Positions 27,325 through 46,311 of a stretch of DNA of 64,000 nucleotides are shown here, in pieces. Under the pieces are notes generated by a model, which was given only the letters and a program-made list of their open reading frames with translations, ran no database searches and had not been told where the DNA came from. Within the stretch, counting starts at the first letter, position 1; each line of letters begins with the position of its first letter. The DNA comes from an uncultured Clostridia bacterium (lineage in GTDB: Bacteria; Bacillota; Clostridia; TANB77; CAG-508): assembly GCA_947628715.1 (NCBI GenBank), contig CANRAW010000001.1, positions 62,001 through 126,000 of the forward strand. The letters run 5' to 3'. Made by a program: the position numbers and the translations under genes.

Positions 27325-29484
27325 ATGAATCTTAACACACGACAAGAAAAAGTTGTAAATGCAAATGAGAGGAAGATACTATGTTTGAGTTCTGCCGGCT
27401 CAGGAAAAGCAATACTCAATTCTGATTTTGTGCCGACACCAGAGGGTATGAGAAAAGTATCAGATATTAAAGTTGGGGACTATTTGTTTGATAGAAAAGG
27501 TAATCCAACAAAAGTATTGGGAGTATTCCCACAAGGTAAGAAAGAAGTGTATGAACTTGAATTTGGTGACGGTAGAAAAGCTAAATGTTCAAAAGACCAT
27601 ATTTGGTATGTTCATAAAGCTACTTGGAAAAATAGAGATGATTTCAGAGAATTTACTGTTGACCAATTGCTCAAAGAAAAATTGATTAACAATAATAGAG
27701 CAGCCTATTTCTATATTCCTTGTTCAGAAGCAGTAAAGTATACAGAAAAACAATACAAAATTCATCCTTATATAATTGGAGCTTTTCTTGGAGACGGTTG
27801 TTGTAGAGAAGCAAAACTAACCCTTTCCTCAGAAACAGACGAAATTCCTAATAACATATGTAAGTTTTTGGGTAATAATGTTACGCCTTATAAACTTCCT
27901 GCTGCTAACTATAGCTGGGTTTTCTACAAGGATAATGAGAAACTTCCAACTTCAATTCTACCGCCTGAACTTCTTCATTATTCTTATGAAAAAAGAATAC
28001 CAGAGGAATATAAGATAGGTAGTATAGAGCAGAGATTAAGTCTTTTGCAAGGACTTTTTGATACTGATGGTAGTATTACTAAACAGAAGAAAGGAAAATT
28101 ATACACAACTGATGTAACATTTACTTCGACCTCTCTACAGCTAATAGCAGACGTAAAAGAAGTATTAGGCTCTTTAGGCTACGTCTCTACAATTAGAGTT
28201 GATAATAGACCTGAAAAATATACAACAGGAGTATGTTACGAACTCGGTATCAACATTCCCAATAGCGAGAAAGATAAACTCTTTCTACTTAAAAGGAAAC
28301 GTGATATAGCTCTTAGCAACAAAGACCAAAAGCAACATAGAAACTACGACAGAACTTCAATCCGTTCCATTACTGACTTAGGTTATGAAGAAGAAATGAC
28401 TTGTTTTTACGTTGACAATAGCGAGCATTTGTTCTTAATGAGCGAGTTCTGTGTAACTCATAATACCAGAGTGCTAACGGAACGAGTCAGGGTACTAATC
28501 GAGAAAAAGGGTGTTAAGCCCCAAGATATAGTTGCAATTAGCTTTACAAATCTCGCCGCAAACGAAATGAGAGAAAGACTTGGTGATATTGCAAAAGATA
28601 CCTATATTGGTACTATCCATTCCTATGCAAATAAAATCTGCTTAATGAACGGAATCGATACTCAATCCTATATTGAAACTGAAAAATTTGAAAAGATAAT
28701 TGAAAAAGCAATTACAATTCCCTATAACAGCTATCCTAAAGTCGACCATGTACTAATTGACGAATGTCAAGACCTTAGTCCATTAGAATATCAATTTTTA
28801 AGCAAAATCCCAACAAACAATATTTTCTATATAGGCGATAATCGTCAAATGATTTATACTTTTCGAGGCTCTTCGGAAGATTTTATTGATAATCTCTATA
28901 AAGATAATGACTATAAAAAATACTTTTTAGTAGAAAACTATCGTAATGCTCCTAATATTGTTAAATTTGCAGATAGTTTTTTAACCTCAATGGTACAGTT
29001 AAGTCCTCAGACAATACCAATTAAGAAGAAAGACGGTATTATACAAGAATGTCCGTTTAATGAAGCGTTAGACGAGTTAGAATTAAGTGGTAACTATGGT
29101 TCTTGGTTTATTTTAGCAAGAACAAATAAGGAAATTGAAAAAATTCAAGAATTGTTAGACGAAAGAGATATTCCCAATATTACGTTTAAAAAAGGAGACG
29201 TTGATAATTTTCAATTAGAATCGTTACTTAAAGAAAATATTGTAAAAGTCCTCTCAATTCACTCAGCAAAAGGTAGTGAAGCTGCGAACGTTATTGTTGT
29301 AGGGGCTAAGACTTATAACGAGGACGAGAGAAGAATCGCTTATGTTGCTGCTACACGAGCTAAGAACGTTCTCTATTGGTGTCCTACGGTTATTAAGAAA
29401 ACAAGACCGGGGTTTAAAGACCCTCAGAAAAATAAAGCACAAAGACGCTTTGGTACAAGTTTTAACAAAATCGTCATGTTTTGA
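27325..29484 (+). CDS. UvrD/Rep-like SF1 DNA helicase, intein-containing
   Basis: SSAGSGK//TRVLTERV Walker A; VLIDECQDLSPLEYQFL; YIGDNRQMIYTFRG; LSIHSAKGSEAANVIVVGA. Confidence 0.9.
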   Translation: MNLNTRQEKVVNANERKILCLSSAGSGKAILNSDFVPTPEGMRKVSDIKVGDYLFDRKGNPTKVLGVFPQGKKEVYELEFGDGRKAKCSKDHIWYVHKATWKNRDDFREFTVDQLLKEKLINNNRAAYFYIPCSEAVKYTEKQYKIHPYIIGAFLGDGCCREAKLTLSSETDEIPNNICKFLGNNVTPYKLPAANYSWVFYKDNEKLPTSILPPELLHYSYEKRIPEEYKIGSIEQRLSLLQGLFDTDGSITKQKKGKLYTTDVTFTSTSLQLIADVKEVLGSLGYVSTIRVDNRPEKYTTGVCYELGINIPNSEKDKLFLLKRKRDIALSNKDQKQHRNYDRTSIRSITDLGYEEEMTCFYVDNSEHLFLMSEFCVTHNTRVLTERVRVLIEKKGVKPQDIVAISFTNLAANEMRERLGDIAKDTYIGTIHSYANKICLMNGIDTQSYIETEKFEKIIEKAITIPYNSYPKVDHVLIDECQDLSPLEYQFLSKIPTNNIFYIGDNRQMIYTFRGSSEDFIDNLYKDNDYKKYFLVENYRNAPNIVKFADSFLTSMVQLSPQTIPIKKKDGIIQECPFNEALDELELSGNYGSWFILARTNKEIEKIQELLDERDIPNITFKKGDVDNFQLESLLKENIVKVLSIHSAKGSEAANVIVVGAKTYNEDERRIAYVAATRAKNVLYWCPTVIKKTRPGFKDPQKNKAQRRFGTSFNKIVMF
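27409..28464 (+). mobile_element. intein (352 aa) with LAGLIDADG endonuclease, probable class 3 (Ala1, W-C-T signature, Thr+1)
   Basis: AILNSDFVPTPEGMRKVSDIKVGDYL..., DHIW, AFLGDGCC / LFDTDGSIT, TCFYVDNSEHLFL, CVTHN|T; removal restores GSGKT. Confidence 0.9.
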
Positions 29485-30922: not shown

Positions 30923-31621
30923 ATGTTAGCAAAAAATTGGTATTAGAAAGGTAGAGTTACAATACTAAGTAACACTGAGGACCAACCCATTTCTTTAATG
31001 GGAGAACTTGCCGCCGTTTGTTATAATTCGAGTAATAGTAGTAATGAAGCGAATTATAAGAGAGGATTAGATTGTTTGAAGAGCGGACATATGCGAGTTG
31101 CAGAATTTCCTAAGATTTACTTTGTCTTAGACGGATGGTCGGCAAAGGTCGTCCGAGAACTCTATACGCACATAATTAGTGTAACCCGTCTCCAAGATTC
31201 AACTCGCTATATCGACTTTACAAACTTCGATTACGTTGTGCCGCCGGCAATTAAAAACAACGAAGAAGCGAACCAAATCTATTGCAACGAAATTAACAAT
31301 ATACGAGCCGCAATGAAGAGGTTGAGCGATTTGGGGATTGCTAAAGAAGATTTAAGTGGACTCTTGCCGCTTAACTATAAAACTAAAGTAGTGTTCTGTA
31401 TGGGGCTTAGAGAGTTCATCAATATTTGTGAGGTAAGGTTGTGTAGTCGAGCCTATCATGAAATGAGGGAGTTAGTAGGCGAAATAGTAGATGCTTTATG
31501 TGTCTATTCAGACGAGTATAAGACTTTGAAAGAGCTTGGTTATTTTAATCCTAAGTGTGTTAGATTGGGGTATTGTAACGAAACTAAAGGATGTGGAAGA
31601 TACAAGAAAAAGGAAGAGTAA
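30923..31621 (+). CDS. thyX: FAD-dependent thymidylate synthase
   Basis: RELYTHIISVTRLQDSTRYIDF (ThyX-like motif); TAG at codon 8. Confidence 0.8.
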
Positions 31622-31756: not shown

Positions 31757-31798
31757 GAGAAAAAAGTGAGCTGCGTAGCAGCGAACAGCTTTCTTTTT

Positions 31799-31975
31799 GA
31801 TTACTTTTTCTTGGCTTTAAGAAAAAGTAATACTAATATAACGTCATAAATTCTTAATACCTTACTCATTTAATCGTAATATCTTAATCATAAAAACTGA
31901 ATATCTTAGTCATAAATTCTTAATGTATAGTCATAAATTCTGAACTTAATTCTTTAAAATACTTTTTTAAAGAAT
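31799..31975. repeat. candidate replication origin or operator: 13-bp hairpin, about five 22-bp iterons, AT-rich inverted repeat
   Basis: attactttttctt/aagaaaaagtaat; CTTA[G/A/C]TCATAAATTCTTAATAT at 31839-31947; ttctttaaaa/ttttaaagaa. Confidence 0.55.
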
Positions 31976-32028
31976 TTACTTATATTATGAAAGCCAATAG
32001 GCAAATAAAATACTGAGAGGTGACAGTA

Positions 32029-32850
32029 ATGTAGTCAAATAAAAATGTAAAAGGTTTGGCAGTCTTTAGTCAAGAAGAGCAGATAAGGGAAAGAAGCTTA
32101 AAATTATATACTTATTTAGTTTGTCATTCTTATCTTAGAAATGCTCCAAATCAATTTGGTGATAATGTAAGAATATTTAGACAAAGAGACATTAACTTAC
32201 AAGAAATAAAGAGAATTTTAGGCTTTGACCCCGATACAACAAAAAAATATTGGAATGGATTAGAACAAGAGGGATTGATAAGATATTGTCCTCATGATTT
32301 TAAAGAAATTAAATTTGATAAAAACAATATTCCCATTCCTTTTAAAGAAAGATGGAAAATAAGAACCAAACATAAAGATACTTATTATGAAATACCTATA
32401 ACAGATGGACAAATGTTTAGAAAAATTCCTAAAGATACTTTAGTAGAATTGAATGAAATTTATAAAGTTAATGAATTAACAATGAAAATCTATATTACTT
32501 TAGTAAATTATCAAGAAATATCAATTTATAATAATCAATCCGCAAGAAAGTTTACATATCAAGATTTAAGAGATTTATTGGGTTACGAGCCACATACATT
32601 AACAAATAAAAAAATGGAAGTTTCCTTACATTTACTTGAAAGTTTAAAATTGATTGAGATTGACAAAGGTAATTTTACTAATAAATATGGTGTTGTAATT
32701 CCTTGTTTTAGTTTACGTCAAGCTAATTTTTATATTTCTTATGAAATTAAAGATTTTGAAACAGGAGATATAGAAATTATTTCAGAAGAAGCAAAAGAAA
32801 AAATAAGAGAAGTAAATAGACAAAGTTATCCTGAAGCTTTTAAAAACTGA
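32029..32850 (+). CDS. winged-helix/HTH replication initiator-like protein; ATG followed immediately by TAG
   Basis: gagaggtgacagt ATG TAG TCA AAT AAA...; repeated wHTH-like segments (LQEIKRILGFDPDTTKKYWNGLEQEGLI; YQDLRDLLGYEPHTL); next to iterons. Confidence 0.6.
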
Positions 32851-33718: not shown

Positions 33719-34955
33719 TTGATTCAGCTTGATAGAAGAACAGTTGTCCAAGTCTTTGGTGGACTAATGCAGTGTCCTGATTTTTTAAGTGATACTGATA
33801 AATATAGCTTAGACCCAACAGACTTTACACAGCAAATTGATAAATATGTTTTTACAGCAATTTATAATCTCTATATGGGTGGAGCAGAAAAAATCCATGT
33901 ATCTGATATAGATGGTTATTTCCAAGACAATGTGCCGGCACAAAAGCTTCTTAATGAGAATAATAACCTCCAATTTCTTAAAGATTGCGAGACTTATGCT
34001 GATGCGAGTAATTTTAATTATTATTATAATAGACTAAAGAAAATAAATTTAGTAAGAGACTTACAAAGGTCAGGTTATGATACTAATAATATCTATTGTG
34101 AAAATCCTTTAAACGATAGGTATAATGAAATAAATAAAAAATTTGAGGAAATAACAACGCAAGATATTGTTAAGCAAATTAAGATAGATTTAGCTAATCT
34201 TGAAAATAAGTATGTTTATAATACAGTTGTTGAAGAGAGTAAAGCCTATACTGGAATTAAAGATTTAATTAAAGAGTTAAAAGTAAAGCCCGAAGTTGGT
34301 GTAAGATTGCAGGGGGAAATCTTTAATACAATTTGCCGAGGGGGAAGAAAAGGCAAGCTTTATTTAAGGTCGGCATCCAGTGGGGTGGGGAAAACTCGCT
34401 CAATGGTGGGAGATGCTTGTAACATCGCTTACCCAATTCGCTTTGAGCCGAAATATGGTAAGTGGATTGCGACAGGAACGCCGCAAAAGGTACTATATGT
34501 AATGACGGAACAAGACCCAGCAGAGATTCAGACTATGATACTTGCCTACTTAACAGGTTATAATGAAGATATGTTCTTGTATGGAACTTATGGCGATGAA
34601 CATATGGATAGAATTATGAAAGCTGTAGATATAATGGAGAAGTATCAAGATAATATGTTGTTTGCAAGAATCCCCGACCCATCGGCAAATGTAGTTAAAA
34701 ATCTCTTTAGACGATATAATTTTCAAAAAGGAGTTGAAGTGTTTTTCTATGATTATATCTTCTCTTCGCCCGCAATGATGGGAGAGTATCGTGACCTTAA
34801 AGTTCGTGAGGACATTCAACTTAGATTGCTTGCGACCGCAATTAAAAACGTTGCGGTCGAGCTTGACGCTTTTATAATGACGGCGACACAGTTAAGCAAT
34901 GAAGATGATAGCACGAGAAAGAATGGGTTTAGAGATGTTAAAAATATAAGAGGAT
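33719..34955 (+). CDS. dnaB: DnaB-like replicative helicase, exon 1
   Basis: LYLRSASSGVGKTRSMVGDACNIAYP Walker A; VEVFFYDYIFSS; IMTATQLSN; joins in frame to exon 2. Confidence 0.8.
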
Positions 34956-35229
34956 TGAGCTTTGGTCTAATATATCTTTACTCAGTAATGAGGGTTAATT
35001 GTAAAATTAGCTAACGAGGAAGCCTAAGTCTTAATTGATATGGTAATCTCGTGGGAATTATTTGAATAAAATAAAGCCTGTATCGACTATCCCTGTGTTG
35101 AGAGACTGGGAGTAGGGGCATTATAAATGCTTTAACTAAGGAAACGAAGTTAATGAGAACCGAAAGAGATATAGTTTCTTTTAAGAAATTTAAAAATAGT
35201 CAGTTCCTATAGAAATATAGGATTCAATG
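34956..35229 (+). ncRNA. group I-like intron in the helicase gene (274 nt, no ORF)
   Basis: Removal restores ...KNIRG-S-KAIVDVADIACI in frame; 5' exon ends U, intron ends G; core nearly identical to the 39243 intron. Confidence 0.8.
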
Positions 35230-41078: not shown

Positions 41079-41111
41079 TATTATAGAAAATAAAGAAAAA
41101 GGGTGATATTT

Positions 41112-43499
41112 ATGGAATTTTATGGCTCGTGCCACGACCACACAGATAGGAGCAACTTCCGTCTTAGGGACTCGACAAATCGTCTCGAGGACTTGTGTTG
41201 GTATGCGGCGAAGGAACTTCAACATAATTTTATTGCGATAACAGACCATGAAACTATTGCTACGGCTCTTGATTGTCAAATAGTAGAAAAGAAAATAAGA
41301 AAAGAATATCCTGATTTTAAAGTTATTAGAGGTAATGAAATTTATTTATGCCGCAATGGGTTGAGTAAAGAAAACTTTGTAAAAGGAGTAGACAAGTATT
41401 ATCATTTTATTTTGTTAGCAAAAGACGAAAGAGGACATGAACAAATTAGAGAACTTTCTACAAGAGCATGGTTGAGAGCGTTTGAAACAAATAGAATGAT
41501 GAGAGTACCTACATATTATTCTGACCTACAAGAAGTTGTAGGACAAGATAAAGGTCATGTCATCTTCAGTTCCGCCTGCATTGGTTCAAGATTAGCACAG
41601 TTAGTGTTGGACTACAACAAAGAACCTACAATTGAAAAGTATGAATATATTAAAAATTGGATTAAAAATATAAGTGAAATTTGTGGAGTAGAGAATTTTT
41701 TCTTGGAAACTCAGCCGTCTTTTAATAAAGAACAGATTATAGTAAACAAGACTTACAAGAAGCTATCGGAAGAACTCAATATTCCTGTGGTAATTTCTTT
41801 GGACGCTCATTATATGAAAAAGGAAGATGAACCTATTCACCACGCTTTCTTAACAGCACAAGACGGAGATAGAGAAACTCATGAATTTTATGCTTCGACT
41901 TATATGATGTCAAGAGAAGAAATTCATTCTTATATGGACGATAGTATAGGAAAAGAAACTGTAACAGAATGGATGAATAACACCAAAAAGATATATGATA
42001 TGTGTGAGGATTATGATTTAACTAAGCCAACAAGAATTGTATATCTTCCTAAGACAACAGACAAAATTAGTAAAGATGAATATTTAATGTTTAAAGATAA
42101 GATAAAGGAACTTGAATATTTTTATATCTCAGAACATCAAGAGAATAGAGATTTGGCTGCGGCGATAGTAAGAAAGATATTAAAAGACCCAGAACAATAT
42201 AATAATGAACCTACGTTTGAAATGATAGATGATAATTTAAAGGCAATAAGATTAGCTTCTGAAAAAATGCAAACACAGTGGAGTGCTTATCTTCTGAATC
42301 TTAGAGATTATGTTCGTATAATCTGGGAACAAGGCAATTCATTAACTGGTTGTTCACGAGGTTCAGGTACAGGTTTTCTTCTATTAAATATGTTAGATGT
42401 AACTCAAATCAATCCACTTAGAGAGACAACAAAAACCTATAGTTTCCGTTTTCTTAATCCCGAACGAGTTTCACCTTTGGACGTAGACTTGGATATTGAG
42501 GGAGGAAAACGCCCACAAGTTTACGCTGCACTTCAAAAAGCATATGGTAAAGATAGAGTTTCTAAGGTTTTAACAATTAGAACTGAAAAATCCAAATCAG
42601 CAATCCTCACCGCTTCACGAGGATTGGGCATAGACCCAGACGAAGCGTCATATTTAGCTTCTTTTATTAAAGCAGATAGAGGACAACAAAGAACTTTAGC
42701 CCAAACATATTATGGTGATATAGAAAACGATATGCCGCCTGATTTAAAATTTAAAGAACTTATGGACACAAAATATCAAAAATTGTGGCAAGTAGCTCAA
42801 CATATAGAGGGTTTGTGTTGCGGCGTAGGAAGCCATGCAGGTGGAGTAATCTTCTATGATGAACCGATAACTAAGACTACTGCTTTAATGCAAACTACAA
42901 ATGGTGATATAATCACGCAATATGACCTCCATAAGCTTGAATCGTGTTCATTGTTGAAAATTGATTTGCTCTCTATAGAAGCTTTGGATAGAATTAGAGC
43001 AACTTTAGATTTGTTAGTAGAATATAATTATCTGGATAAAAATAAGAGTTTGAGAGAAAATTATGAAGAAGCGATAGGGATTTATAAGATAGAAAGAAAA
43101 GACCCAAAAATGTGGGAAATGATTCATCAACATAAAATTGAAAGCTTGTTTCAAATGGAAAAGCAAAGTGGAGTACAGGGAATTGAAGTAGTTAAGCCAA
43201 CTTCAATTGATGATTTGGCGGCACTTAATTCTGTTATAAGACTTATGCCACCCGAAAAAGGAGCAGAACAACCGATTCAAAAATTTGCAAGATTTAAAAA
43301 AGATATAAGTTTGTGGTATAAAGAATTAGAAGAGTGGGGAGTTGATAAAAAATATTGGAAGATGTTGGAGGGTATTGTTGGAATTTCTTATGGTATGTGT
43401 ATTCAACAAGAACAATTTATGATGTTGGTTCAGCAAAAAGAATTAGGAGGCTTTAGTCTATTATGGGCTGACAGATTAAGAAAATCAATAGCTAAGTTT
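41112..43499 (+). CDS. dnaE: DNA polymerase III alpha subunit, exon 1
   Basis: PHP domain (GSCHDHTDRSNF), SRGSGTGFLLLNML, DVDLDIEGGKRP; ends in LGGFSLLWADRLRKSIAK. Confidence 0.88.
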
Positions 43500-44766
43500 T
43501 AATTGGCGTTTTAAGATGAAAGTCTTAAAATTATCACAGGGCAAAATCGTTGAAGTCTAAGTAGGAATTGGTACATATTAAATGACAATTAAAGTCAGGA
43601 GGTATGTAGCATGAGAAAAATGGCAACTGAGGAAGAAAAACAAATTTGGAAAGAGAGATATTTAAAAGGTGAAACAGCACGTTCTATTGCACAGGATTTT
43701 CCTCAATATCACGAATCTACAATAAGTAGAAATATTAAAAAAATGGGTATTTCGAGAAATGGACGGGCTTTTCATACTTGCTCTATTGAACAAGATGTAA
43801 TAAAAGATTTTTCAACAGGAAATTTTTATTGCGAAGAATTAGCTATAAAATATGAAGTAGATGTACATACTATATATCGAATTTTAGACGGAGTTAATAT
43901 AAAAAGAAAAACTGGTGTTAAAAGTTCTTGTAATGAAAATTACTTTAAAAAAATTGACACTCCTCATAAAGCTTATTTATTAGGTTTTATTACGGCTGAC
44001 GGAGCTATCACGGGAAAATATAATAGTAGTTGTTCTATTGAAATTCATGAAAAAGATAGTGATTTAATAGATTTTGCAAAATTTGAAATAAATCCATCAG
44101 CTACAATAACTGATTGTCACTACAAAAATAAACATAATAAAAAAATAAGCTTTTCAAGTAAAAAGTTATGTGAAGATTTGGCAAAATATGGCGTAATATC
44201 AAATAAAAGTTTGATATTAGAAAAAGTTCCAATTGAATATATTCCTGATGAATTGTTGTGTTATTATTTTAGAGGTTTAATAGACGGAGATGGTTGTATT
44301 CACAAAGATGGAAAAATTTCTATATATTCAGGTAGTTTAAATTTCATAACAGATGTACAATCAATATTATGTGAAAAAGTTGGAGTGTCAAAGTTAAAGA
44401 TATATCATGGTTCAACTTATTTTGTTTCATGGGGAAGTAGAGCAGACAAAGAAAAATTTTATAATTATTTATATAAAGATAAATTAGATAAAACTTTTTA
44501 TTATAAAAGAAAACACGATAGATTGTATCAATTCCTATATGATAATGACGAGATAACTATTTAAATTGCGAAAGGTTAAATAGTATTGTAGAGCGTAGAG
44601 GGTGAATAAATATAATCCCTCCAAGAGTGTCCTGCTCCCAAACAAAGTAAGATGTGGGAGAAAATGTACGCCGGGCTGGTCTGAATTGACAGACGTATTC
44701 TTAATATAAGATATGAGAGAAATCTCCAGAAGTAAAGGATAAAAAGCCTTTACGATAACAGATCCG
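43500..44766 (+). ncRNA. self-splicing intron (probable group I) in Pol III alpha carrying a homing endonuclease; boundaries approximate
   Basis: Splits RKSIAK...KKNAGEYDELTKEFFE; structured flanks around the HEG; exact splice sites not resolved. Confidence 0.7.
43611..44564 (+). CDS. LAGLIDADG homing endonuclease with N-terminal HTH
   Basis: AYLLGFITADGAI, YYFRGLIDGDGCI; similar architecture to 37321..38175. Confidence 0.85.
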   Translation: MRKMATEEEKQIWKERYLKGETARSIAQDFPQYHESTISRNIKKMGISRNGRAFHTCSIEQDVIKDFSTGNFYCEELAIKYEVDVHTIYRILDGVNIKRKTGVKSSCNENYFKKIDTPHKAYLLGFITADGAITGKYNSSCSIEIHEKDSDLIDFAKFEINPSATITDCHYKNKHNKKISFSSKKLCEDLAKYGVISNKSLILEKVPIEYIPDELLCYYFRGLIDGDGCIHKDGKISIYSGSLNFITDVQSILCEKVGVSKLKIYHGSTYFVSWGSRADKEKFYNYLYKDKLDKTFYYKRKHDRLYQFLYDNDEITI

Positions 44767-46311
44767 AAAAAAAATGCAGGAGAATATGATGAACTGACGA
44801 AAGAATTTTTCGAGATAACACGAGAAAAGGGCTGTGATGAGAAGCTTTGTAAATATGTGTGGCACGTTTTAATCTCCACGAATCGAGGCTATGGTTTTAA
44901 TGCAGCTCACACTCTCGCCTATTCACTCGTGGCTTTGCAAGAGATGAATCTTGCTTATAAATATCCAATCATCTTTTGGAACACGGCAAATCTAATTGTA
45001 GATTCAGGCTCAATGAATTTGACAGAAGAAATTGATTTAAATAATGATAATGATAATAATGATGAAGATAAAATAAAAAACTCCTCAACCGATTATGGTA
45101 AAATTGGTGCGGCGATAGGAAAGATGAAAACGAGAGGATTGAATTTTAGTTTGCCTGATATAAATAAATCTGGAATAACGTTTACTCCAGAAATTGAAGA
45201 AAATAGAATAATATATGGTTTAAGAGGTTTAACCAGAATTGGTAATCAACTTATTAAAGATATAATAATAAATAGACCTTATACTTCAATAGAAGATTTC
45301 CTTTCAAAAGTAAAGGTTAATAAACTTCAAATGGTAGCTTTAATTAAAGCAGGAACATTTGATTCTCTCTACTCAAACAATAGACAACTTGTAATGGACA
45401 AATATATGGATTTAATAGCAGATAAGAAAAAAAGAATAACACTTCAAAATATGGCAACGTTAATATCAAAAAATTTAATCCCAAATGAATTAGACTTTGA
45501 AAGACGTTTGTTTAACTTCAACAAATATTTAAAGAATTTTAAAGAAAATTCTTACTATCGTCTTGATTCAATAGCATTAAAATTCTTCACAAAATATTAT
45601 GACGATTCGGTATTAGAATCTGTAGAAATAAAAAATAATGAACAAACTGCACTAATTAAGCAATCAACTTGGGATAATACTTATAAAAAAGGAATAGAGA
45701 AAATAAGAGTTTGGATGAGAGATAACCAAGAACAAATATTAGATAGTTTAAATAAAAGTTTAATTGAGGAAACATATAATAAATATGCAGATGGCAATAT
45801 CTCAAAATGGGAAATGGATAGTTTAAGCTTCTATTATCATGACCATGAACTTGCAAAACTCCAGAACGAAGTTTATGGAATTAGTGATTGGAACAATCTG
45901 CCAACAGAACCTATTATTGATAGAACTTTTAGAACTAAAGATAATAAGGAAATAACAATGTTTAAGATAACAAGAATAGCAGGTACGGTAATAGATAAAG
46001 ATAAAAATAAAAGCACAGTTACATTGCTAACAACATCAGGAGTTGTAGTAGTAAAAATTTGGAAGAATCAATACGCTTCATGGGATAAGCAAATTTCTCA
46101 AAGAGATAATGAAGGGGTTAAGCATATATTGGAGAAATCTTGGTTTACTAAAGGAACAAAATTGATAATAACTGGAATTAGACGAGGAGATGATTTTGTA
46201 CCTAAGAAATATAAGTCAACAGAATATCCGTTGTTTGAGAGAATTGATGAATTAGATGATAATGGTTTTATTTTGAAATCGAGTATTGAAAGAATTGACG
46301 AGGAGGATTGA
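44767..46311 (+). CDS. dnaE: DNA polymerase III alpha subunit, exon 2
   Basis: KKNAGEYDELTKEFFEITREKGCDEKLCKYVW...GYGFNAAHTLAYSLVALQEMNL. Confidence 0.85.
   Translation, partial: KKNAGEYDELTKEFFEITREKGCDEKLCKYVWHVLISTNRGYGFNAAHTLAYSLVALQEMNLAYKYPIIFWNTANLIVDSGSMNLTEEIDLNNDNDNNDEDKIKNSSTDYGKIGAAIGKMKTRGLNFSLPDINKSGITFTPEIEENRIIYGLRGLTRIGNQLIKDIIINRPYTSIEDFLSKVKVNKLQMVALIKAGTFDSLYSNNRQLVMDKYMDLIADKKKRITLQNMATLISKNLIPNELDFERRLFNFNKYLKNFKENSYYRLDSIALKFFTKYYDDSVLESVEIKNNEQTALIKQSTWDNTYKKGIEKIRVWMRDNQEQILDSLNKSLIEETYNKYADGNISKWEMDSLSFYYHDHELAKLQNEVYGISDWNNLPTEPIIDRTFRTKDNKEITMFKITRIAGTVIDKDKNKSTVTLLTTSGVVVVKIWKNQYASWDKQISQRDNEGVKHILEKSWFTKGTKLIITGIRRGDDFVPKKYKSTEYPLFERIDELDDNGFILKSSIERIDEED

Follow-up and report, generated by a model that had tools for sequence, protein, structure and literature searches.

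TAG-recoded (genetic code 15) phages of the gut include crAss-like phages, phAss-1 (PMC10607447) and Lak phages, and the recoding literature has emphasized structural and lysis genes (PMC9523058, PMC10136315, PMC10879173). The contig described here (C1) resembles these gut phages in a TAG codon apparently read as glutamine, a phage-encoded tRNA with a CUA anticodon, and TAG use that is heavy in the late genes, whereas the early genes avoid it. It departs from the published emphasis in that replication-initiator-like genes bear TAG, one of them (R94) at codon 2. Lambda bar minigenes are AUG-stop minimal open reading frames (ORFs), in which a stop comes directly or almost directly after the start codon; R94 differs from these in that its frame runs on over another 271 codons and that the phage uses TAG as sense. 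SPbeta-like phages use the standard code. Their DNA polymerase (about 36-38% identity) and DnaB-like helicase are related to those of C1; unlike the polymerase and helicase, the initiator had no relative in phage records, and no near DNA match was found there for the window's first 25 kb. Rep_3 iteron plasmid initiators (RepE, PF01051) have two winged-helix domains, as predicted for R94, and, as on C1, iterons spaced 21-22 nt upstream of the gene. R94 is distinguished from them by the absence of a sequence match to the family (none to the PF01051 model in Pfam even at E up to 10), and C1 by four modules per phage and an extra two-hairpin element.

Phage contig, glutamine codons and suppressor tRNA

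The window (the whole 64-kb stretch of DNA that was analyzed) comprises bases 62001-126000 of C1, a 166,779-bp contig within a 1.67-Mb bin. Genes were called on the contigs with a simple purpose-made caller. C1 looks like a phage, with a TAG-poor early block, TAG-rich late blocks and a replication block between them. With early and late assigned from gene blocks, the early minus-strand block of C1 contained 12 TAG vs. 342 CAA/CAG codons (12/354 Gln codons), and the late blocks contained 63 vs. 154 (63/217) and 88 vs. 194 (88/282). The fraction of sequence covered by long ORFs in one late block rose from 0.43 to 0.94 when TAG was taken as sense. Phage genes for both gyrase subunits (A and B) and for an anaerobic ribonucleotide reductase were also observed in the early block (L006:11492-18684 (-)).

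A tRNA with a CUA anticodon is encoded at C1:41065-41142(-) (= L006:1065-1142 (-)), adjoining a tRNA-Gln. ARAGORN returned a full cloverleaf with CCA for this tRNA; the Rfam tRNA model gave no match to it, a point against the reading favored below, and did match the neighboring tRNA-Gln. The phage suppressor tRNA invoked by the original prediction is thus present on C1 but lies outside the 64-kb window, within which no suppressor tRNA was found. The bin encodes RF1, and on its other contigs 9 of 46 long ORFs end in TAG, so that UAG should terminate translation in the host unless suppressed. The bacterium of the bin is presumably the host of phage C1.

One clear relative of C1 was found among the ~1,480 genomes searched. 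Of the 189 called C1 genes, 89 have a match on this contig, D1 (CADAWN010000001.1; 163,214 bp), which also carries a CUA tRNA-like gene at 131997-132070(-). When C1 TAG codons were aligned to D1, 55 of 131 fell on Gln (TAG 32, CAA 18, CAG 5), 14 on Glu and 11 on Lys; in the opposite direction, 74 of 206 D1 TAG codons fell on Gln codons of C1, and Gln was the top partner both ways. Codon alignments and tRNA content indicate that phage C1 reads TAG as glutamine (genetic code 15) in many genes, via its own CUA tRNA.

Start region of R94

R94 had been proposed to start at an ATG followed directly by TAG and preceded by a ribosome-binding site. The adjacent ATG and TAG were confirmed in the sequence (Table 1), and the frame after the TAG is open through to a TGA. 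The Shine-Dalgarno (SD) sequence was also borne out, with a duplex energy of -10.1 kcal/mol (medians: called genes, -9.1; all ATGs, -1.0). The TTG named as the next in-frame start is indeed the sole early in-frame alternative to ATG 32029 and lacks an SD. Both related ~165-kb phage contigs were scanned for an SD, ATG and TAG followed by a long open frame, and R94 was the only instance; no other good-SD gene of at least 60 aa on C1 or D1 has TAG at codon 2. RNA folding near the R94 start was unconvincing (z -1.7), and a Rfam scan at the start gave no match. A short leader ORF at 31987, ending immediately 5' of the R94 SD, was considered and rejected, as it has no SD of its own. The R94 protein most simply begins Met-Gln-Ser-Asn.

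Table 1. Features of the R94 region and of the C1 initiator-like genes. Positions are those of the window unless prefixed with C1.
Feature	Position	Strand	Remarks
ThyX gene	30923..31621	+	5' of R94; one in-frame TAG, at codon 8
Two-hairpin element	31766..31833 (C1:93766-93833)	+	Common to four modules; covariance-model matches
Iterons (TCATAAATTCTTAAT-like)	31844..31945	.	Upstream of R94; 22-nt spacing
Shine-Dalgarno GAGGTGA	32017..32023	+	5 nt upstream of ATG 32029
R94, initiator-like gene	32029..32850	+	273 aa with TAG as Gln; two predicted winged-helix domains; TAG at codon 2
Start codon ATG, then TAG (read as Gln)	32029..32034	+	ATG 32029-32031; TAG 32032-32034
Alternative in-frame start TTG	32056..32058	+	No SD; SD score 0
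DnaB-like helicase gene	33719..35014	+	TAG-free
R12, initiator-like gene	C1:11759-12451		TAG at codon 65 of 230, inside the helix-turn-helix stretch HKTR-TAG-TVSKRF
R16, initiator-like gene	C1:16040-16882		TAG at codon 275 of 280, six codons from the end
R29, initiator-like gene	C1:29219-29998		TAG at codon 7

Were translation to start at TTG 32056, or to re-initiate there, the protein would be nine residues shorter and ATG-TAG would act as a start-stop leader lowering expression before the code switch. This TTG lies immediately before the conserved domain, all of which would be retained, a counterpoint to the ATG start; R29 likewise has a TTG at a similar position, and the N-terminal tail of R94 is unconserved and predicted to be disordered. 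The missing SD argues against a TTG start, as does the R29 ortholog on D1, which is free of an N-terminal TAG and nevertheless has a strong SD at the upstream ATG and retains the tail. We consider initiation at the TTG improbable.

The reading that we favor, with good though not full confidence, is that R94 is one of four iteron-type initiator-like genes of a code-15 phage and starts at ATG 32029, with TAG at codon 2 serving as an ordinary Gln codon and with synthesis following the code switch. The CUA tRNA of phage C1 would decode TAG as Gln in many genes, and translation of R94 from ATG 32029 would read codon 2 in the same ordinary way. In an RF1-bearing host, R94 would be made from this ATG only after the CUA tRNA had accumulated, which would place its synthesis after the code switch. 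With the TAG downstream of the natural start, a CUA tRNA gene on the phage, RF1 in the bin and TAG apparently read as Gln, full-length R94 should need suppression. To this extent the proposal that full-length initiator synthesis depends on amber suppression stands; a selected switch was unsupported. Dependence of R94 synthesis on the suppressor tRNA is likely. If R94 is a replication initiator and cannot be made without the phage tRNA, the code switch extends back to DNA replication; the two states of R94 differ by one codon.

Repeated modules and the initiator-like family

The two-hairpin element gave four covariance-model matches in the whole bin, every one of them on C1, and paired substitutions were found at 4 base pairs in 3 copies. 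A likeness of the element to Lak phages was rejected, as it was confined to a T-rich stretch and the hairpins were absent. R94, R16 and R29 each have the two-hairpin element upstream, followed by iterons spaced 20-22 nt and in helical phase. When 377 upstream regions of C1 and D1 were scanned for iterons, the five module genes all ranked within the top six. R16 and R29 are paralogs of R94 on C1 (35-36% identity); the fourth copy of the element precedes the winged-helix gene R12, which is at most distant kin of R94. In the other initiators, as in R94, the conserved domain is preceded by a short N-terminal tail of variable sequence, a point in favor of the reading given above. Between two of the initiator modules lies a gene (L004:13220-14155 (-)) whose product joins a GIY-YIG endonuclease domain to winged-helix segments.

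The R94 protein had no match to Pfam, PHROG or PDB sequences. Its predicted structure (pLDDT 69) contains two winged-helix domains and a disordered N-terminus; a second model, built with four sequences, was worse. Among its fold matches in BFVD were a 'replication protein O' (3e-4) and a 'replication initiator protein' (2.8e-3), and those in the PDB were to RepE and another Rep at E about 0.3, which is not significant. Domain architecture and iterons suggest that R94 is a replication initiator, and we infer that the four C1 modules are putative iteron origins with their initiators. Whatever the role of the TAG codons, the repeated origin-like module, which has a hairpin element of its own, offers a further lead.

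The same genes could encode winged-helix regulators of another kind (DnaD- or ScpB-like), the repeats being operators in their own promoters. PHROG matches of related module genes point in this direction (R12 to ScpB, 4.8e-9; a D1 gene to a DnaD-like loader, 1.6e-6), as does the missing Rep family match of R94. However, four loci with helically phased iterons and a conserved two-hairpin element have the usual build of iteron origins, and the names of the BFVD matches speak for replication; a regulatory role for R94 is considered doubtful.

Single TAG codons in initiator-like and early genes

Each of the four C1 initiator-like genes contains exactly one in-frame TAG (Table 1), and only R16 would yield a near-complete product without suppression. 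In the early block of C1, TAG occurs in 3/3 initiators vs. 7/73 other genes (p 0.0017). No TAG occurs among the roughly 115 Gln codons of the nearby genes for helicase, primase, RecJ and polymerase. Among C1 genes with a single TAG, the TAG falls within codons 1-8 in 6 of 21, with 1.4 expected (p 4e-4; test chosen post hoc). All of these counts would fit selection for initiator TAGs as gates, each delaying its origin until the suppressor tRNA builds up, with R16 acting first and R29, R12 and R94 later. Other counts weigh against such gates. Calculated per Gln codon, the excess in initiators (3 TAG and 27 CAA/CAG vs. 10 and 322 in the others) was not significant (p 0.08). The N-terminal enrichment, besides being post hoc, was weak in D1, where 3 of 11 single-TAG genes had the codon within the first eight (1.2 expected; p 0.09) and no enrichment was seen across all TAGs (p 0.36).

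The relative contig bears on the same question. No R94 ortholog was found in D1, which has a single initiator, an ortholog of R29 (76% identity) with a start position identical to that of R29. At codon 7, where R29 has TAG, this ortholog has CAG, which fits the glutamine reading, and the codon 8 TAG of ThyX aligns with CAA; the N-terminal TAG positions comparable to that of R94 are thus not kept in D1, which counts further against gates. The D1 ortholog of R29 has three TAG codons at other positions, two of them over R29 Gln codons. By contrast, TAG is shared by C1 and D1 at codon 5 or 11 of two genes from TAG-using families. The simplest reading of the aligned codons is that TAG and CAA/CAG replace one another as Gln codons, and initiators may be less strongly TAG-avoiding than other early genes. 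Selected gating by the initiator TAGs as a set is judged unlikely; for the codon 2 TAG of R94, a role as a selected gate is possible. A related model, in which the four iteron origins differ in their need for suppression and the code switch changes which of them fire (R16 before; R94, R29 and R12 after), fits the TAG pattern. It was built post hoc, and staged origin use of this kind is regarded as unlikely.

Further features were observed among the neighboring replication genes. Codons 30 and 34 of the DnaB-like helicase gene of D1 (L026:11439-13154 (+)) are TAG, whereas the helicase gene of the window is TAG-free. Another helicase gene (window 27325-29484) encodes a LAGLIDADG domain and has N-terminal matches to terminase families; its D1 ortholog is 310 aa long and aligns only from residue 410, and the gene looks like a UvrD/Dda-like helicase with an intein. 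The DnaE-type polymerase is apparently split, with the catalytic part at 41103-43502, a helix-hairpin-helix part at about 44944-46311 and a 317-aa ORF between them.
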